Shown: one piece after another, positions 4,278-47,122 of the stretch
How the letters are laid out: every line of letters begins with the position of its first letter
Position numbering within the stretch: the first letter of the stretch is position 1
Assembly: GCA_018433765.1 (NCBI GenBank)
Contig: JAHDQO010000003.1
Coordinates: 124,001-188,000 of the forward strand
Direction: 5' to 3'
Origin: Tissierellales bacterium
GTDB lineage: Bacteria > Bacillota > Clostridia > Tissierellales > Sedimentibacteraceae
Length of the DNA stretch: 64,000 nucleotides
Program-made: the position numbers and the translations under genes
The notes under the pieces: model-generated
The model's input: the letters and a program-made list of their open reading frames with translations, nothing else
Databases searched by the model: none
What the model was told of the DNA's origin: nothing

Positions 4278-5279
4278 ATGAAAAGCAGCCCCAAAAACTT
4301 TTACAAAATGATACAAAATTATAAGGAAGCTCAGCTATTATTTGCAGCGATAGAATTAGATATTTTTTCTTATTTGAAAGATTATACAGAAGTTAAAAGT
4401 GTGACTTTAGCGACAAGTTATAATGAAAGAAATCTTAAACTTTTTTTAAATAGTTTGGTTTCAATTGGATTATTAGAGAAACAAAATGATAGATACAGAA
4501 ATACTGAACTAGTGGATTGTTATTTAAATAAAAAAAGTGATACCTTTTTAGGTGAGTTTATACTATTTAGAGAAGAAATGACAAGATTAACTAATGTAGT
4601 AGAACGTGTGAAACATGGACCAATTCAGAAAGTTGCAAAAAATAACATGGGAGTTGAAGTTTATGACTTTTATAAATTGGCAAAGGTATCAATAAATGAA
4701 ATGTATACAGGCAGAGTACAATCACTTTTAGAAGCATTGGAATCAATTTTTGATTTAGATAAAGAGTTAAAAATATTAGACTTGGGCGGAGGTTCTGGTG
4801 TATTGGCTATAGAGATAATTAAGAAATATCCTAATTCAAAAGGTATTATTTTTGAGCATCCATCAGTATCAAAACTACCGAAAGAATTAGTTAAAGAAAA
4901 GGGACTTGAGGAACGTATCAAAGTTTTATCTGGTGATTTTACTAAAGATAATATAGGAAATAATTATGACCTAATAATTGCATCAGGAATACTAGATTTT
5001 GCAAAAGATAGTTTGCCTAATATGGTAGGAAAATTATATCAATCTCTAAAAAATTCTGGATATTTATATTTAGTAAAGCATAATGTAAGCAAAGATTATA
5101 CTTCTCCAAAAGAAACAATTGTTGGATGGTTATCAAGTCATTTAGATGGATTAGATGTTTTAATAGATAGTGAAAGCATCTGTAAAGCTGTTCAAAAAGC
5201 TGGTTTTAAAGAATTAAAAATTAGCGAAGTAAAAGGAATTATAGATAACCTTGAAGGTGAGTTTTATAAAAAACATTAA
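4278..5279 (+). CDS. class I SAM-dependent methyltransferase with N-terminal dimerisation/winged-helix domain
   Basis: 333 aa from the ATG at 4278, which follows TAGGAGGT. Residues 1-100 resemble the dimerisation domain of O-methyltransferases of the acetylserotonin-methyltransferase/CrtF type (QLLFAAIELDIFSYL). Residues about 165-290 carry the SAM-binding loop ILDLGGGSGVLAIEI and an acidic IIFEHPSV strand. It starts 10 bp after the ATPase, so it belongs to the Fur-controlled operon. A methyltransferase tied to an iron-complex importer could modify or dismantle the imported chelate, but the substrate is not known. Confidence 0.8.
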   Translation: MKSSPKNFYKMIQNYKEAQLLFAAIELDIFSYLKDYTEVKSVTLATSYNERNLKLFLNSLVSIGLLEKQNDRYRNTELVDCYLNKKSDTFLGEFILFREEMTRLTNVVERVKHGPIQKVAKNNMGVEVYDFYKLAKVSINEMYTGRVQSLLEALESIFDLDKELKILDLGGGSGVLAIEIIKKYPNSKGIIFEHPSVSKLPKELVKEKGLEERIKVLSGDFTKDNIGNNYDLIIASGILDFAKDSLPNMVGKLYQSLKNSGYLYLVKHNVSKDYTSPKETIVGWLSSHLDGLDVLIDSESICKAVQKAGFKELKISEVKGIIDNLEGEFYKKH

Positions 5280-5296
5280 GTTTTTGTATATTTAAA

Positions 5297-5325
5297 TTGA
5301 AACTTATATTTCAACACTTTATAAT
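5297..5325 (+). promoter_or_regulatory. promoter of the MarR gene, overlapped by a dyad, leaderless
   Basis: A -35 TTGAAA (5297-5302) and a -10 TATAAT (5320-5325) are separated by exactly 17 bp. Transcription should begin about 7 bp after the -10, which is the ATG at 5332. The imperfect dyad TTGAAACTTATATTTCAA (5297-5314) covers the -35 and is a likely MarR self-operator. Confidence 0.6.
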
Positions 5326-5331
5326 TAAAGC

Positions 5332-5781
5332 ATGAAAGATAAAACTAGTGAAATAATGGTTGAGTTTGTTAAACTAATAGAAGTAGTAGCAAATGGTAAA
5401 AAGAAGGTATTTAATTTCGGAGATGACTTGATATTTTATAGAGGTGAAATTCATATGATTAAAGTGATAGGTGATTATCCAGGTATTTATATATCTGAAA
5501 TGGCTAGACACTTTAATGTTACTCGAGCAGTCGTTTCAAAGACTATAATGAAATTAGAAAGGAATGGATTTGTAAGTAAAGAAATAGATCCTTCTAATAA
5601 AAAACTTGTATGTCTTAAATTAACAGAAAAGGGACAGAAAGCTTATAATGAAAACAAAGCTTTTCATAAAAAGAATGATACTCCTATATTTGAATTTTTA
5701 GATACGTTAGGAGATAAAGACTTAGATTTGATAAAAGATTTTTTGGTAAAAGCAAATGGTATGGTAAAAAACAATTTTTAA
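5332..5781 (+). CDS. MarR-family transcriptional regulator
   Basis: 149 aa, the normal length for MarR proteins. The winged helix-turn-helix spans about residues 40-100 (YISEMARHFNVTRAVVSKTI, then the wing around DPSNKKLVCLKLTEKG). No ribosome site precedes the ATG, but a consensus promoter places the transcript start at or next to the ATG, so the message is probably leaderless. It follows the iron importer/methyltransferase operon and is convergent with the AraC gene, whose stop is adjacent. It probably represses itself and perhaps neighbouring genes; the effector is unknown. Confidence 0.85.
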   Translation: MKDKTSEIMVEFVKLIEVVANGKKKVFNFGDDLIFYRGEIHMIKVIGDYPGIYISEMARHFNVTRAVVSKTIMKLERNGFVSKEIDPSNKKLVCLKLTEKGQKAYNENKAFHKKNDTPIFEFLDTLGDKDLDLIKDFLVKANGMVKNNF

Positions 5782-6756
5782 TCAGAATTGTTTTTTTCTA
5801 TATTCTTTAGGCGTAAATCCAGTTGCTTGTTTAAACATCTCAGAAAAGCTGCCATGTAGTTTATAGCCTACTTTATTTGATATCTCTCCTATTTTAATGT
5901 CTGAGCATATAAGCAATTCTTTTGCTTTGTTAATGCGTAGAGACTGTATATATTCTGTTATTGTTGAGTTATAAACTTGTTTGAATGTATTAGTTAATTT
6001 GTTATGGCTCATGCATGCTATCTTAGATAATGTATCTAACGAAACAGTATTTGTATAATTTTGATTTAAATAATTTTCAACTATACTTAGCTTTTCTATT
6101 TCCCAATCAGGAATGTTATCATTGTCATTAAAAGATAATTGATTCTTTCCCCACTGCATTACCAATGAAATAAGTTCCATAACCTTACTTTCATAATATA
6201 TTCTCGCGATATCGTTAGATGGTTGGAATGAACGTATTTGATTTAATACTAACGTTATTTCAGGAACAGAATTATTTCCATCAAATTTAGAAAATATATT
6301 TAACATACTTTGTAAATCAATAGAGTATTTATTTGGCAGGAACTTTTGATAAAATTCAGGTGTAAAACAGATGCCAACATTACAAATTTTCGTATTCACG
6401 TTTATTGTCTGATGGAAAATATCATTATTACCTACATATCCTATTAAGCTTTGCATGTGTCCATTTTTATTTTTTAGTAAAAGTTCAGCATTAGATGTTT
6501 CATAATTACCAAGACATACAAAAGGTGGATGTTCATATTGGAAATAAAAATCGCTTTTGAAAGTTAAGTTAAAAATTGATATAGCATATAAATTATCTAC
6601 AGGATAAACCCAAAAAAAACCTGTACCGATTAAGGGGTCAAGTTCATAATAAATACCACAGCGTTTACTATTGTGTGGAATATCTGAAGGAAAAAATCCA
6701 AGCTTTGATAAATAAGGTAAATATAATTGATTTAGTATTGTTTTCAAAGATATCAC
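5782..6756 (-). CDS. AraC-family transcriptional regulator
   Basis: 324 aa. The C-terminal ~100 residues contain two helix-turn-helix motifs (LDTLSKIACMSHNKLTNTFK and IGEISNKVGYKLHGSFSEMF) followed by the family tail TGFTPKEYRKK. The N-terminal ~220 residues are a sensing domain without obvious cupin motifs. It is divergent from two ABC half-transporter genes of the YbtPQ/IrtAB kind. This recalls YbtA, an AraC activator of siderophore uptake that senses the loaded siderophore. The intergenic region holds a 21-bp-spaced direct repeat that is a plausible binding site. Confidence 0.88.
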   Translation of the reverse strand: MISLKTILNQLYLPYLSKLGFFPSDIPHNSKRCGIYYELDPLIGTGFFWVYPVDNLYAISIFNLTFKSDFYFQYEHPPFVCLGNYETSNAELLLKNKNGHMQSLIGYVGNNDIFHQTINVNTKICNVGICFTPEFYQKFLPNKYSIDLQSMLNIFSKFDGNNSVPEITLVLNQIRSFQPSNDIARIYYESKVMELISLVMQWGKNQLSFNDNDNIPDWEIEKLSIVENYLNQNYTNTVSLDTLSKIACMSHNKLTNTFKQVYNSTITEYIQSLRINKAKELLICSDIKIGEISNKVGYKLHGSFSEMFKQATGFTPKEYRKKQF

Positions 6757-6762
6757 TCCTAA

Positions 6763-6794
6763 AATTTTGGCTATTACACAAACAATTTTGGCTA
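6763..6794. promoter_or_regulatory. direct repeat, candidate AraC-family operator
   Basis: AATTTTGGCTA occurs at 6763-6773 and again at 6784-6794. The 21-bp spacing is two helical turns, so both copies face the same side of the DNA. It lies immediately upstream of the AraC start and in the divergent control region, as expected for an AraC dimer site. Confidence 0.5.
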
Positions 6795-6817
6795 AATGTC
6801 ATAAGGCGTTATTAATA

Positions 6818-6846
6818 TTGACTTTCATTATCATAAAATGTAGTAT
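6818..6846 (+). promoter_or_regulatory. candidate promoter for the ABC half-transporter operon
   Basis: TTGACT (6818-6823) and TAGTAT (6841-6846) are separated by 17 bp, about 160 bp before the first gene. A second, weaker option is TTGAAT at 6930. The long leader could leave room for the Fur site and activator contacts. Confidence 0.4.
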
Positions 6847-6870
6847 TTATATATTATATCAAACTATTAA

Positions 6871-6889
6871 GATAATTAAAACAATTATC
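6871..6889 (+). promoter_or_regulatory. Fur-like box
   Basis: GATAATTAAAACAATTATC is a 7-5-7 inverted repeat matching the Fur consensus at 15 of 19 positions. It is about 18 bp downstream of the predicted transcription start of the transporter operon. Confidence 0.55.
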
Positions 6890-7006
6890 TCAGACTTATG
6901 AAAAATGAATTTTCATTGTTATTTTTGAGTTGAATTTATTTGATTTAAACATACATTAAAATTCAAGTTTTCAAAAGTCTATTATTTTGTAAGAAAGGAA
7001 GGGATT

Positions 7007-8806
7007 ATGATTACTAAATCTAAAAAAACTAGTATATTGCCTAAATTAATGAAATATGCGGGAAAATACAAAATTACTATGGTATTATCATGGGTTTTTG
7101 CCGCTATTGCTGGTGTGATGAGCATAGCACCATATATCTGTATATATTTTGTAGCAAGAGAATTACTAAATACAGGAAAAGATATATCTTTATTAAATAG
7201 TGAAGCAATGACGAGTTATGGCTGGATGGCTGTAAAAGCTACCATGATGTCATTTATGTTTTATTGTTTTTCTTTAATGTTTTCTCATTTAACTGCATTT
7301 AATTTAATGGCAAATTTAAGAATTAGGCTGATAAGACACTTAGGAGAACTGCCACTTGGATTTCATATTGCAAATCCTAGCGGTAAACTTCGTAAAATTA
7401 TCGAGAAAAATGCTGAAAATACAGAAAACTTTGTAGCTCATCAGCTGCCGGATACAGTTCAGGCAATAATAACGCCCATAGCTTTCATAGCAAGTATGCT
7501 TTATTTTGACTGGCGGTTAGCTTTAATCTGTATGGTACCTATTGTTATTGGATTTGTAGTATTAAGTTTTATGCTCAAAGGAGAGAGTGAGGGATTTTTA
7601 AAACAGTATCAAAATTCTTTGGCTGATATGAGTAATGCAGCTGTAGAATATGTAAGAGGAATTTCTGTAGTAAAAGTTTTTGGTCAAACTGTCCATTCAT
7701 TTAAGAGATTTCATAATTCAATTATTACGTACAAGAAATTTGTTACAGAATATGCTTTATCTATGAAGAAACCAATGAGTCTGTATATAGCATCAGTCCA
7801 TGGAATCTTTTTTGTATTAATACCAGCTGGAATTGTATTATATCAGTTGTCGGTAAGCAAAGAAAGTTTTATACTCAGTTTTGTATTTTTTATTGTATTT
7901 ACACCGTTAGTAGCTGTTTTAATGGTTAGAATTATGTATAGTTCTTCCAAACAAATGATTACTTCACAGTCTTTAGATGTTATTGAAAGTCTTTTAAATG
8001 AAAAGCCTATGACTAATGCATCACATCCAAAAAAGCCAAAATCTTATAACATTAATTTTGATTCTGTGTCTTTTAAATACGAAAAAGATGGTGCAAAAGC
8101 TATTAATAATTTGTCTTTTACTGCTAAAGAAGGTACTGTAACGGCTCTAGTAGGTCCTTCGGGTGGAGGAAAAAGCACTGTTGCTAATTTAATTTCAAGA
8201 TTTTGGGATGTAGATAGCGGTAGTATCTGTGTTGGAGGGATAAATGTTAAAGATATGGATTATAAGGAATGGATGGAAGAGATTAGCTTTGTGTTTCAGG
8301 ATGTAAATTTGTTTAAAATGACCATTGCAGAAAATGTAGCTTTTAATAAGCCAGAAGCAAATGAAAATGAAATTTTAAGAGCGTTACATTTAGCACAATG
8401 TGACGATATTATTGCTAAGCTTCCTGAAGGTATTAATACAGTCATTGGTACAAAAGGTATATACATATCTGGTGGTGAAATGCAACGAATTGCACTTGCA
8501 AGAGCAATATTAAAAGATTCACCAGTTGTTCTTTTAGATGAAGCTACAGCTTTTGCTGACCCAGAAAATGAATATAAGATTCAACAGGCTTTAAATGTGT
8601 TGATGAAAGGAAAGACTGTTATAATGATTGCTCATAGATTATCTACTGTGATAGGAGCTGATCAAATTATAGTTTTAGATAACGGTAAAAAAGTTGAATC
8701 TGGAACTCATAATGCTTTGATAGAAAAGAACGGTATGTATGCTAAGATGTTCAGAGAATATCAAACAGGTACGACTTGGAAAATAGGAGGTGAAAAATAT
8801 GCTTAA
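7007..8806 (+). CDS. ABC transporter, fused permease/ATPase half-transporter 1 (YbtP/IrtA-like)
   Basis: 599 aa, preceded by AAGGAAGGG. Residues about 15-320 are a six-helix exporter-type membrane domain and 345-590 the nucleotide-binding domain. The NBD has Walker A GPSGGGKST, signature ISGGEMQR, Walker B VVLLDEA and an H-loop in IAHRLST. It overlaps the next half-transporter gene by 8 bp, and the two proteins should form a heterodimer. Exporter-fold pairs next to an AraC regulator and a Fur box resemble the YbtPQ and IrtAB siderophore importers, so inward transport of a ferric chelate is likely. Export of a metallophore remains possible. Confidence 0.85.
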   Translation: MITKSKKTSILPKLMKYAGKYKITMVLSWVFAAIAGVMSIAPYICIYFVARELLNTGKDISLLNSEAMTSYGWMAVKATMMSFMFYCFSLMFSHLTAFNLMANLRIRLIRHLGELPLGFHIANPSGKLRKIIEKNAENTENFVAHQLPDTVQAIITPIAFIASMLYFDWRLALICMVPIVIGFVVLSFMLKGESEGFLKQYQNSLADMSNAAVEYVRGISVVKVFGQTVHSFKRFHNSIITYKKFVTEYALSMKKPMSLYIASVHGIFFVLIPAGIVLYQLSVSKESFILSFVFFIVFTPLVAVLMVRIMYSSSKQMITSQSLDVIESLLNEKPMTNASHPKKPKSYNINFDSVSFKYEKDGAKAINNLSFTAKEGTVTALVGPSGGGKSTVANLISRFWDVDSGSICVGGINVKDMDYKEWMEEISFVFQDVNLFKMTIAENVAFNKPEANENEILRALHLAQCDDIIAKLPEGINTVIGTKGIYISGGEMQRIALARAILKDSPVVLLDEATAFADPENEYKIQQALNVLMKGKTVIMIAHRLSTVIGADQIIVLDNGKKVESGTHNALIEKNGMYAKMFREYQTGTTWKIGGEKYA

Positions 8807-17414: not shown

Positions 17415-17428
17415 GTATCTGTGGATAC
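17415..17428. promoter_or_regulatory. Crp/Fnr-type dyad upstream of the second fec operon
   Basis: GTATCTGTGGATAC has 5-bp inverted arms around TGTG, the Crp/Fnr 16-bp architecture. Its centre (17421.5) is 29.5 bp before the -10 hexamer, which is position -41.5 if the start is at 17463. The same relation is found at 21226 and 47109. Confidence 0.65.
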
Positions 17429-21225: not shown

Positions 21226-21239
21226 GTATCCATAGAAAC
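21226..21239. promoter_or_regulatory. Crp/Fnr-type dyad upstream of the BadF activase
   Basis: GTATCCATAGAAAC matches the reverse complement of the 17415 site at 12 of 14 positions. Its centre (21232.5) is again 29.5 bp before the -10 TATAAT at 21262. Confidence 0.6.
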
Positions 21240-39046: not shown

Positions 39047-39081
39047 AATGAGCTGTTCAATAGAAGAACAGCTCATTTTTT
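39047..39081. terminator. bidirectional terminator
   Basis: AATGAGCTGTTC (39047-39058) pairs with GAACAGCTCATT (39066-39077) and runs into Ts. It differs from the L25 terminator hairpin, 2 kb away, only in two loop bases. It overlaps the 3' end of the convergent Crp/Fnr gene. Confidence 0.75.
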
Positions 39082-39771
39082 AATATCAAGATTGTTTAAT
39101 TTTTCTACATTAAGAATAGTAAATTTATTCTTTTGGAATTCTATGAGCTTTTCATCTCTCATCTTAGACAATTCTCTTGAAAGAGCACTGCGATTTACAT
39201 TGAGATAATCAGCAAGTTCATTGCGATTATATGGTATTGTAATTGTTGATTTTTGCTGCAAAGCTAATTGATTAATCAGATATGATGCAATTTTTTCTTT
39301 TGTAGATTTTTTACCAAGATAGTCTAATTTTTCGGTAAGCATTAAGTTTTTTTTAGCAATTATTTTTAACATATTTTGAATTAATCTATTGTGAAAAGTA
39401 CATGAATTTCTACAACTAGTAATTAATTTTTTAAAATTAATGTACATTATTTCTGATTTGGTAGCTGAATAAATAGTAACTGGAGATTTTTTTATTTCAG
39501 CACATACAAAGGCTTCACCAAATAAATGTGATGTAGAAATACGAGATATCAAACTTCTATTGCCGCATATATCTTCTTTTACAATGTCAAGAGTACCTGA
39601 TAGTACAATACCTATAGAATTAATATTATCTCCAGCAAGACAAACTATGCTATTTTTATTATATTTTTTAGTTTTTGCTCCAAGGCAGTGTAGCATTGAA
39701 TTTAAATCATTACTATCTATATCATCAAATAATTTTACTTGTTTTAAGATGTGAAAATATTCTTTCAACAA
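39073..39771 (-). CDS. Crp/Fnr-family regulator, candidate HcpR-type
   Basis: 232 aa from a TTG at 39771 after TAGGAGG. It has an N-terminal beta-roll (INSIGIVLSGTLDIV) and a C-terminal winged helix with RNELADYLNVNRSALSRELSKM. The Cys residues at about 29, 44 and 81 do not form a recognisable FNR cluster. It is the last gene of an operon (7-bp overlap with the kinase) that is divergent from ferredoxin-hcp. Clostridial hcp genes are commonly controlled by a Crp/Fnr protein called HcpR, so this is a good candidate for the factor that binds the dyad at 43245. Confidence 0.85.
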   Translation of the reverse strand: MLKEYFHILKQVKLFDDIDSNDLNSMLHCLGAKTKKYNKNSIVCLAGDNINSIGIVLSGTLDIVKEDICGNRSLISRISTSHLFGEAFVCAEIKKSPVTIYSATKSEIMYINFKKLITSCRNSCTFHNRLIQNMLKIIAKKNLMLTEKLDYLGKKSTKEKIASYLINQLALQQKSTITIPYNRNELADYLNVNRSALSRELSKMRDEKLIEFQKNKFTILNVEKLNNLDIKK

Positions 39772-40907
39772 AGACCTCCTAAATTTGTATTTTCAATTAT
39801 TTTATCTACTGTAGATATTTTCAGATGTATTTCAAAGGTAGTTTTTTCCTTATCACTGTAAGCTGAAATTTGACCTGAATGTAACTCAATAATACTTTTT
39901 GCTATAGCTAGTCCTAAACCTGCTCCTCCTGTAGCTTCAGAACGAGATGGTTCAATTCGATAAAATCTTTCAAATATAAAAGGTAGAAAGTGCTTAGGTA
40001 TAGTATTGCCATAATTAGTTATTTTAACAATGACAGTATTGTTGCTTTGCACTAAATCAATATCTATATATTTACCATTTTTTCCGTATCTAACTGCATT
40101 TGTAAGAATGTTTTCAAATGCTCTTACTAACATATCACCATTGCCAAATACATATATTTTTTTTGGGGGTAAATTTAACCTACAGTCTATTTTCTCATTT
40201 TGAAAAATAGGAAAAAATTCGTCTGTTAATTGGTTTAGTAACTCTGAAAGGTTTATATCTGAATATTCAGCTTTTGTATTATTATAATTTATTTTAGTAA
40301 ATTCAAATAATTGATCAATTAGTTTCTTCAATCGCTGAGATTTATTATATACAATATTAATATAATTTTTCAGCTCTTCTTCATCTTTATACTTGTTGTT
40401 TACAATAAGTTCTAGATAACCAAGTATTGATGTTAAGGGTGTACGTAAATCATGGGATACGCTAGTAATTAATTCTTCTTTGTCTCTTTCAGCATTCCTT
40501 TCATCTTCAATAGAAGTTTTTAATTGTTCAACCATTTTATTTATATTTTTTGTAAGTTCTCCAAGTTCATTGGATTCTCTTACTGGAATTTTTATATTTA
40601 GATTTCCTTGAGCAATTTTTTGAAGTTCCAATGATATTTCATCTACATATTTTAATTTTCTTTCAGCGGATAATATTCTTCTTATTAGTAAAAAGAATAC
40701 TAAAGAAAGAATAATGCCTGTTCCAATAACTATAGTATAAATACCTATACCATATTTAAGATTTCGCATAAAATCATGAAGCCAAGGTACATAATATATT
40801 CTTCTAGCTATAGATAACAAATAATATACACACAGAAAAGCTAATCCAATACTTAGTATTACAATTAATATATACTTTTTGTTGATATTAAAATTTTTAT
40901 TTTTCAA
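39765..40907 (-). CDS. sensor histidine kinase with HAMP domain
   Basis: 380 aa. Two helices (about 10-33 and 48-73) flank a short extracellular loop, followed by a HAMP linker (to about 130). The HisKA box is VSHDLRTPLTSILGYLEL, with HATPase N box NILTNAVRYG and G boxes in GGAGLGLAIAKSI. It overlaps the response regulator by 11 bp and the downstream regulator by 7 bp. Confidence 0.9.
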   Translation of the reverse strand: MKNKNFNINKKYILIVILSIGLAFLCVYYLLSIARRIYYVPWLHDFMRNLKYGIGIYTIVIGTGIILSLVFFLLIRRILSAERKLKYVDEISLELQKIAQGNLNIKIPVRESNELGELTKNINKMVEQLKTSIEDERNAERDKEELITSVSHDLRTPLTSILGYLELIVNNKYKDEEELKNYINIVYNKSQRLKKLIDQLFEFTKINYNNTKAEYSDINLSELLNQLTDEFFPIFQNEKIDCRLNLPPKKIYVFGNGDMLVRAFENILTNAVRYGKNGKYIDIDLVQSNNTVIVKITNYGNTIPKHFLPFIFERFYRIEPSRSEATGGAGLGLAIAKSIIELHSGQISAYSDKEKTTFEIHLKISTVDKIIENTNLGGLC

Positions 40908-41601
40908 TTTTATAACCTACTCCCCATACTGTTTTAATAAACTTAGGTTGTCTAGGGTTTTGTTCAATTTTTTCTCTGATTTTTCTAATATGAACCATAA
41001 CAGTGTTATTAGATCCAGCAAAATATCGTTCTTTCCATATTTGTTTAAAAAGTTCTTCTGTACTAAATACTCTACCTCTATTACTTGCTAGTAAAAAAAG
41101 TATTTCAAATTCTGTAGGAGTTAAATTTTTCCCTTCTCCATATATTGAAACAGTGTGATTTTCATAGTTTATAAAAAGTTCATCTATATTAATAATATTT
41201 TTAGACATATTGTCAGCATTCTGAGGATTAAGATAAATATATCTTCGTAATTGAGATTTTACTCTGGCAACTAACTCTAGAGGATTAAACGGTTTTGAAA
41301 TATAGTCATCAGCTCCAGTACTTAATCCTATTATTTTATCTATGTCTTCAGAACGAGCACTTAACATTAAAATAGGTATATTCATTTTTTTTCTAATTTG
41401 CCTGCATAATTCTAGTCCATCAATGCCAGGCATCATAATATCTAGTATTGCAAGATGAATTTTATTATTATCAATTGCTCTAAGAGCATCATACCCATTA
41501 TATGCCTTGATAATTTTATATCCTTCACTAGATAAATGAATTTTTATAAGTTCTACAATTTCTTTATCATCATCTACAACTAATATCTTAATATCATCCA
41601 T
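40897..41601 (-). CDS. OmpR-family response regulator
   Basis: 234 aa. The receiver domain has VVDDDKE, the phospho-acceptor in LAILDIMMPGIDG and Lys in ISKPFN. The winged helix ends IKTVWGVGYKIEK. It is the partner of the overlapping kinase. It begins 48 bp after the solute-binding lipoprotein. Confidence 0.92.
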   Translation of the reverse strand: MDDIKILVVDDDKEIVELIKIHLSSEGYKIIKAYNGYDALRAIDNNKIHLAILDIMMPGIDGLELCRQIRKKMNIPILMLSARSEDIDKIIGLSTGADDYISKPFNPLELVARVKSQLRRYIYLNPQNADNMSKNIINIDELFINYENHTVSIYGEGKNLTPTEFEILFLLASNRGRVFSTEELFKQIWKERYFAGSNNTVMVHIRKIREKIEQNPRQPKFIKTVWGVGYKIEK

Positions 41602-41649: not shown

Positions 41650-43026
41650 TTATAGCTGTTCATTCAAATATATTGATACCTTGTTTTGTATAATTTGTGC
41701 AGCTTGTTCTGCTGTTTTTTCTTCTGAAAAATACATTTTAACATATTCATTTACTATTTCCAATATTTCTGGATTTGCATCTCTACAAGTAGTTATACTT
41801 GAAACAAATTCTTTAAGTTGAAAAGTATAATTTTCTAACAACTCATTATTTTTTTCAATAGAAATTTCATTAAATTCTTTACATTCATCTGTAAGTTGTT
41901 TTTGATCCTTTTCTAGTTTTTTATTAAAAGATGTATTATTAACAGGAAACCAATATAATTTAGGAGATGTCTGAATTTCATCAGAAAGCATGAATTTAAT
42001 AAATTTCCAAGCCAATTTTTTGTTTTCTGAATTATTATTTACAGCGTATTTATGGATAGCATTAATCATTACTCCGTTATTACCACTATTTGAAGGAGTT
42101 TTGTAATAATATCTTGTTGCGTTGTCTAGTACGTATGAACAAATACCATCAGAAACTATATCATAAAGAGAATTCACACTATATGTTTCAAATATACGCT
42201 TGCTTTTTTTTCGATCATCTGAAGTTTTACATATAATCTTATCATCAGCTAAGCTTTTACAATACTTCATTATATCAATAAATTCTTTTGATGTAAAATT
42301 TGCAGTTTTTTCTTCTTCGTCAACATAGTTTTTATATTCATTTTGAAAGATTTCTTCAAAAAATCTATCAACAGTTATAGTAAAAATATATTCTGTATCA
42401 ATATTTTGAGTGTCTTTACTTAATGTTTCTTGAGCAGAAGAAAAGAAATTCTGCCAGTTCCAAGTGGAATCATCTATACCTAAATTGTAGTTACTTGTAA
42501 TTAAACCTAAAGAATAATCTAGTGGTATAACAAATAATCCATCTTTGTAGTGATAAGTTTCAAATACCTTTGTATTGTAGTTATTTATGTTGAATTCTTT
42601 ATCATTTTTCATCAATTTATATATATTTGCAATCATACCGCTGTCAATATAGTTTTTGTATGGCAGGTTACTTAAGTCAATAATATCTGGTGCAATACCA
42701 CTCATAAGTTCTGTGTTAATTGTTGATCTATATTTTTGCATTTCCTCATCAGATGTTTCTGTTGAGCTGAATGTTCTTCCATCTTCAAGCTCTACAACAT
42801 TTTTTATTACATTACCGTAAACCTTAATTTTTACATTTGTATCTGGATTTGAAGCATTAAATTTTTGAACAGCTTCTTCTAATAAAGGATTCTCTTTAAA
42901 AGTTGAGATAGTTAGTATATTGTTATTGTTTGCTTCAGTACTTATGTTTTCGTTTAATGAATTAAAACAAGCTGTAAGATTAACACATAGTATTAGTGAC
43001 ATAATCAGTATAAATAGTTTTTTCAT
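41650..43026 (-). CDS. extracellular solute-binding lipoprotein, family 1
   Basis: 458 aa, preceded by AAAAGGAGAA. The signal peptide ends in the lipobox NLTAC (Cys20). The mature protein is a family-1 binding fold (sugar-type): VQKFNASDP-like QKFNASNPDTNVKIK, then WNWQNFFSSAQETLS and AWKFIKFMLSDEIQ. No permease or ATPase genes adjoin. Instead it is followed by a response regulator and kinase, so it may feed a ligand signal to the kinase and not a transporter. Confidence 0.82.
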   Translation of the reverse strand: MKKLFILIMSLILCVNLTACFNSLNENISTEANNNNILTISTFKENPLLEEAVQKFNASNPDTNVKIKVYGNVIKNVVELEDGRTFSSTETSDEEMQKYRSTINTELMSGIAPDIIDLSNLPYKNYIDSGMIANIYKLMKNDKEFNINNYNTKVFETYHYKDGLFVIPLDYSLGLITSNYNLGIDDSTWNWQNFFSSAQETLSKDTQNIDTEYIFTITVDRFFEEIFQNEYKNYVDEEEKTANFTSKEFIDIMKYCKSLADDKIICKTSDDRKKSKRIFETYSVNSLYDIVSDGICSYVLDNATRYYYKTPSNSGNNGVMINAIHKYAVNNNSENKKLAWKFIKFMLSDEIQTSPKLYWFPVNNTSFNKKLEKDQKQLTDECKEFNEISIEKNNELLENYTFQLKEFVSSITTCRDANPEILEIVNEYVKMYFSEEKTAEQAAQIIQNKVSIYLNEQL

Positions 43027-43244: not shown

Positions 43245-43260
43245 TGTTGCATATGCAACA
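43245..43260. promoter_or_regulatory. perfect 16-bp Crp/Fnr-type dyad before ferredoxin-hcp
   Basis: TGTTGCATATGCAACA is perfectly symmetric. Its centre (43252.5) is 29.5 bp before the -10 hexamer, i.e. about -41.5, the class II activator position. It is a candidate HcpR operator. Confidence 0.75.
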
Positions 43261-43281
43261 GATATTTTACGCTATTTACAT

Positions 43282-43287
43282 TATACT
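43282..43287 (+). promoter_or_regulatory. -10 element of the ferredoxin-hcp operon
   Basis: TATACT, with no consensus -35 at 17 bp; predicted start near 43294. Confidence 0.65.
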
Positions 43288-43327
43288 CATATCAATACAA
43301 AAAAATTATTTTGAGAGGTGAAATTAA

Positions 43328-47108: not shown

Positions 47109-47122
47109 GTAACTACAGATAC
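47109..47122. promoter_or_regulatory. Crp/Fnr-type dyad upstream of fur
   Basis: GTAACTACAGATAC matches the reverse complement of the 17415 site at 12 of 14 positions. Its centre (47115.5) is 29.5 bp before the -10 TATACT, as at the two other sites. Confidence 0.6.

Follow-up and report, generated by a model that had tools for sequence, protein, structure and literature searches.

The window (the whole stretch of DNA analysed, 64,000 nt of a Tissierellales genome) contains a perfect dyad, TGTTGCATATGCAACA, 83 bp upstream of frdX-hcp, and raises the question of which protein reads this dyad and to what effect. Our answer, drawn from sequence comparison, is that the dyad is very probably the operator of the Crp/Fnr regulator HcpR encoded at 39073-39771, which would activate frdX-hcp from position -41.5 under nitrosative stress. 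The circuit type is already known; less expected are its half-site, the displaced hcpR gene and a Cys/His tetrad in the regulator. If we are right, a single regulator can be assigned to a single operator in a clostridial genome not characterised so far. In Table 1, we report the features of the locus.

Table 1. Features of the frdX-hcp locus and related sites in the window
Feature	Position	Strand	Basis or remark
HcpR box (predicted), TGTTGC-ATAT-GCAACA	43245..43260	.	Perfect 16-bp dyad, centre 43252.5; relatives' architecture
Putative -10 box TATACT	43282..43287	+	Starts 29.5 bp after dyad centre; dyad at -41.5, as for a class II activator
frdX ribosome-binding site GAGAGGT	43313..43319	+	Sequence
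frdX, ferredoxin-like protein, 240 aa	43328..44050	+	Fer4/Fer4_7
hcp, hybrid cluster protein / hydroxylamine reductase, 521 aa	44112..45677	+	TIGR01703, 672.6 bits (cut-off 360.8)
Solute-binding lipoprotein, first gene of divergent cluster	41650..43026	-	Domain matches
OmpR/VanR-like response regulator	40897..41601	-	Domain matches
Sensor histidine kinase	39765..40907	-	3' end overlaps hcpR start by 7 bases
hcpR, Crp/Fnr regulator, 232 aa, last gene of divergent cluster	39073..39771	-	Domains, tree, structure model
hcpR codon of C29 (first member of tetrad)	39685..39687	-	
hcpR codons of C120-x3-C124-x2-H127	39391..39414	-	Loop and first turn of dimer helix
hcpR recognition-helix residues RSALSR	39175..39192	-	aa 194-199; CRP positions 180-185
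GTATC-type dyad GTATCTGTGGATAC	17415-17428		Perfect; TATAAT at 29.5 bp
GTATC-type dyad GTATCCATAGAAAC	21226-21239		Imperfect; TATAAT at 29.5 bp
GTATC-type dyad GTAACTACAGATAC	47109-47122		Imperfect; TATACT at 29.5 bp

The dyad and its promoter

A sequence-only reading of the window had claimed that a flawless 16-bp palindrome is centred 29.5 bp before TATACT, that three GTATC-type sites have the same geometry, and that the divergent cluster ends in a Crp/Fnr gene. All of this holds. The palindrome is perfect over its 16 bp. With TATACT taken as the -10 box, the distance from the palindrome's centre to the first base of TATACT (43252.5 to 43282) puts that centre at -41.5. The cluster running from 43026 to 39073 does end in a Crp/Fnr gene. 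The GTATC-type sites all exist with the same spacing, and the one at 17415 is the only perfect dyad amongst them. Downstream of them are an ABC transporter, a 1329-aa ORF and a Fur-family gene, and they lie near two paralogous Crp/Fnr genes, 20509 and 49784, that are 54% identical. For the frdX-hcp promoter, the best -35 candidate is CAGATA at 17-bp spacing, with a match of 3/6 that fits what is expected of an activator-dependent promoter.

The dyad lies in an intergenic region of 301 bp between the divergent cluster and frdX-hcp. In 4000 Markov-1 simulations of this region, any perfect 16-bp palindrome appears in 4.75% of cases, and one with at least 6 G/C in 0.025%, about 1 in 4000. The exact pattern GTTGCN4GCAAC has 7 matches in the 4.19-Mb genome versus 0 for the reversed control pattern. 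A TATAAT-like hexamer (at least 5/6) stands at 29.5 bp in only two of the 7, those of frdX-hcp and of C33:44328, which adjoins the Crp/Fnr gene C33:44353. With so few promoter-like matches, we rejected this search as a means to define a genome-wide regulon.

The promoter in relatives and the recognition helix

We gathered frdX loci from public genomes and from the family, the order and the class, and compared about 150 relatives. Most of these loci have a directly divergent Crp/Fnr gene next to frdX and, upstream of frdX, a dyad with N4 spacing, usually 60-170 bp before the start codon. Taking the 107 distinct dyad-plus-downstream sequences (the window's own included), 97 carry, exactly 29.5 bp from the dyad centre, a hexamer that matches TATAAT in 5/6 positions or more; at the flanking offsets of 28.5 and 30.5, none of the 107 does. 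The half-sites differ by lineage (GTAAC, GTTGC, GTTGT, GTGGT, GTATC, GTTGG, GTTGA), so what is conserved is the architecture and not a single sequence. Same-family relatives mostly combine GTAAC with a regulator whose recognition helix reads RPSLSR; genome G024 combines GTTGC with RSALSR, as in the window. The HcpR proteins of G024 (locus L104) and of G552 (L187) hardly differ, with end branches of about 0.03. As the two genomes are placed in separate families, this suggests a recent transfer of the hcpR-frdX module.

Comparing helix with half-site in 109 distinct regulators with a perfect dyad, which are related to each other, we find GTTGC with RSALSR (15/15), RSAMSR (2/2) and RSSMSR (2/2), that is, with RS[AS][LM]SR in 19 of 19 cases. 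GTAAC goes with RPSLSR or RPALSR (22/23), GTTGT with RSALSN or RSAMSN (24/24), GTATC with RPSMSR (6/6), and GTGGT with RTALSK or RTNMSK (6/6). Arg at residue 185 agrees with C as base 5 of the half-site in 107 of the 109 regulators. A rule fixed before the hold-out loci were looked at is correct in 34 of 42 hold-out cases, against an average of 11.5 under shuffling and never more than 22 in 10,000 shuffles. Its failures are RPSMSR (5), RSAMSK (2) and RPSLSR (1). A simple rule by which P181 with R185 gives GTAAC and K185 gives GTGGT is broken by RPSMSR, which goes with GTATC or GTAGC, and by RSAMSK, which goes with GTTGT. A phylogenetic sign test of helix against half-site is not significant, as there are too few independent switches on the tree. 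Overall, these comparisons support the view that the HcpR recognition helix tracks the half-site of the adjacent dyad. The relationship can be tested directly, as it predicts that a single change in the helix switches the half-site from GTTGC to GTTGT or GTAAC.

Another set includes 25 genomes in which frdX has a dyad and the stretch examined contains no regulator next to it; for these we took the best HcpR-like protein of the genome. The expected helix appears in 6 of 6 GTAAC genomes and in 3 of 3 readable GTTGT genomes, and GTAGC genomes have RPSMSR in 5 of 5. For GTTGC, the best match is a regulator of the [ST]181...R185 type in 4 of 10 genomes (RSAMSR twice, RSAMMR and RTAVSR once each), and the misfits are G232-G234, G523, G454 and G417. 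The best match for the frdX GTTGC dyads of G523, G454 and G232-G234 (loci L179, L185, L147, L146 and L148) has RPSMSR or RPSLSR. The regulator of G417 adjoins a second hcp with its own GTAAC box, and that of G358 adjoins an hcp with a GTTGC box; these two cases indicate that the misfit is partly due to which regulator was picked. Given this mixed outcome, we refrain from deducing an RSxxSR regulator from GTTGC. The data support the direction from helix to half-site.

The regulator that probably reads the dyad

Protein 39073 has a cNMP-binding roll and a Crp-type HTH (PF00027 and PF13545, both above cut-off). Its AF2 model has a pLDDT of 93, and the Foldseek matches are CRP/FNR structures. In the viral contigs searched, we find no relative of it. 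We find seven Crp/Fnr proteins in the genome, two of which, 39073 and C33:44353, carry the RSALSR helix. When the helix and tetrad columns are left out of the regulator tree, 39073 clusters with the hcp-adjacent RSALSR regulators L046, L183, L192 and L197 (SH-aLRT 93), inside a 96-row clade of hcp-linked regulators that has support 96, a branch anchored by no named HcpR2 reference. Regulator 39073 is encoded close to hcp and to a dyad with a half-site that matches its helix residues 180, 181 and 185. The sequence-only reading had paired 39073 with the dyad and had proposed a comparison of the upstream regions of hcp in relatives. That comparison gives dyads of the same architecture and spacing before frdX-hcp in most of them, and together with the RSALSR-GTTGC class and the position in the tree it lends support to the pairing.

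The choice between the two RSALSR regulators is the weakest step of the operator model as regards action in vivo. It is conceivable, if unlikely, that C33:44353 is the main reader of the dyad and that 39073 serves some other purpose in the sensor-kinase cluster to which it was recruited, or that both share the two GTTGC boxes. C33:44353 has the same helix, from which the same sites are predicted, and the same Cys/His tetrad. It also has a GTTGC box of its own, with a perfect TATAAT at 29.5 bp directed at a divergent ArsP_1-family permease pair. On the other side, it falls outside the 96-row clade, on a long branch, and it is on a different contig with its own target adjoining. Each RSALSR regulator has one neighbouring box, and cross-talk between the two proteins at the two boxes is possible. 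The permease pair lies at 5125-7016 of locus L162 (G000 C33), and the GTTGC dyad there overlaps the start region of the C33:44353 regulator gene. The genome's five remaining Crp/Fnr proteins (20509, 49784, C33:12713, C17:110569 and C3) are very unlikely to be the readers of the dyad at frdX-hcp. Two of them lie within the window, but their helices (RSTLSR, RPSLSR, RTSLSR, TPSLSR and YRHLTR) differ from RSALSR, 20509 and 49784 group with a GTATC-associated subfamily and have GTATC-type sites nearby, and C33:12713 has a GTTAC dyad just upstream. Their helices and neighbouring dyads do not fit, and we rejected them as readers of the hcp box. In locus L163 (4662-5379, G000 C33), an RTSLSR Crp/Fnr regulator is preceded by GTTACCATGGTAAC and is divergent from two ORFs; similar dyads stand beside RTSLSR regulators in L313, L314 and L316.

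That the dyad is no operator at all, and instead a terminator stem or a chance palindrome, we find scarcely credible. A terminator scan does list it, with 6 pairs and the tail GATATTTTAC, and two other genomic GTTGC dyads (C11 and C36) resemble stems between genes. However, it sits between divergent genes, where there is nothing to terminate, its T tract is poor, and relatives keep dyads with altered half-sites at an unchanged spacing to the -10 box. On this conservation and spacing we rejected the reading. Against the operator model itself stand the position of hcpR three genes away, versus directly divergent in most relatives, and, from the comparisons above, the second RSALSR regulator, the GTTGC genomes that do not fit, the failures of the fixed rule and the small number of helix switches on the tree. 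The arrangement of lipoprotein, response regulator and kinase genes beside hcpR is not found in any relative compared, and the closest lipoprotein matches outside this genome are at most 35% identical, for which we rejected the three genes as conserved companions of hcpR. The lipoprotein has two paralogues in the genome, C13:279478 and C13:290127 (58% and 55% identical); the order holds only distant relatives of the three.

In the operator model, HcpR would be a homodimer of the Crp/Fnr family that attaches to the dyad in response to nitrosative stress, each RSALSR helix reading one GTTGC half-site. Bound at -41.5, the class II position, it would recruit RNA polymerase to a promoter with a good -10 and a poor -35, and FrdX and the NO-detoxifying hybrid cluster protein would then be made under nitrosative stress. 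To the dyad, spacing, conservation, helix-to-half-site match and regulator clade demonstrated by the comparisons above, the model adds three points that we infer by analogy with known HcpR systems (PMC1274295, PMC12915319): that HcpR activates, that NO is its signal, and the direction of control.

The Cys/His tetrad and known systems

Amongst 135 distinct frdX-adjacent HcpR regulators, 83 have all of C29, C120, C124 and H127, 42 have none and 10 have a part. The tetrad thus appears nearly all-or-none in these proteins; it is undescribed and resembles a metal site. Its presence changes about 7 to 11 times on the tree. The finding is exploratory, since it was noticed by inspecting conservation in the alignment. 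In the AlphaFold model, C29 ends helix 20-29, and C120 and C124 are in the loop before helix 125-152; the tetrad is invariant in the AlphaFold alignment by selection, because that alignment was chosen from tetrad-bearing sequences. FNR has three N-terminal cysteines and C122. The cysteines of 39073 are C29, C44, C69, C90, C120 and C124, of which only C29 is near the N-terminus, so that the FNR-type set of three N-terminal cysteines and one central is absent. The Met68 haem ligand of the Porphyromonas gingivalis HcpR aligns to K65 in 39073, and the same column has K, Q, R, S or N in at least 77 of the 83 tetrad-bearing regulators.

A search for ferrochelatase finds none in 79 of 80 genomes, this one included, with a control search that is positive in 8 of 14 known genomes. 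AhbD has no match above the curated cut-off, with strong sub-cut-off matches in G024, G552 and G466. Haem uptake or a siroheme route is possible. The tetrad, the replaced Met ligand and the missing ferrochelatase together suggest a non-haem metal or Fe-S sensor. We give an even chance to the proposal that most clostridial hcp-linked HcpRs, 39073 included, sense nitrosative stress through such a centre on C29, C120, C124 and H127, lost as a unit in several lineages. Current descriptions of HcpR make it a haem sensor, so the tetrad raises the question of how haem-poor anaerobes sense NO with a Crp/Fnr protein.

The view of the sequence-only reading that clostridial hcp genes are often under HcpR agrees with the available portions of PMC1274295 and PMC12915319. 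The former (Rodionov et al. 2005) describes an HcpR2-hcp regulon in Clostridia, Thermotogales, Bacteroides and Treponema, in which the regulator adjoins hcp in most Clostridium species and members with Ser at 181 (C. thermocellum, C. difficile) are reported to have a motif other than GTAAC (GTAACnnnnGTTAC), one that the portion does not spell out and that may be GTTGC or another. As in that regulon, so far as the portion describes it, we find a Crp/Fnr protein linked to hcp and frdX, an N4-spaced dyad, and helix residues 180 and 181 that track the site; unlike it, the half-site here is GTTGC and a lipoprotein-response regulator-kinase cluster parts hcpR from frdX. A C. difficile hcpR mutant is sensitive to NO and expresses frdX and hcp at a lower level (PMC12915319, whose available portion reports no sensor chemistry). 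Regulation of frdX and hcp, here predicted, and a putative site upstream of frdX-hcp are common to both, but the gene order differs.

The P. gingivalis HcpR (PMC12750200; PDB 9day) has a CRP fold, controls hcp, responds to NO and binds haem with a Met68 ligand. Protein 39073 shares the fold and, by prediction, the control of hcp and the NO response; it differs by Lys65 at the Met68 position and by a 4-residue gap in the aligned 9day sequence in the region of C120/C124/H127. With the FNR of E. coli and A. fischeri (PDB 5e44), it shares the CRP/FNR fold, cysteines in the sensor domain and class II spacing; unlike FNR, it has one N-terminal cysteine and a C-x3-C-x2-H at the start of the dimer helix. 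If the tetrad does hold a metal or Fe-S centre, sensing would be unlike that of the haem-based HcpR of Bacteroidota and unlike that of canonical FNR.
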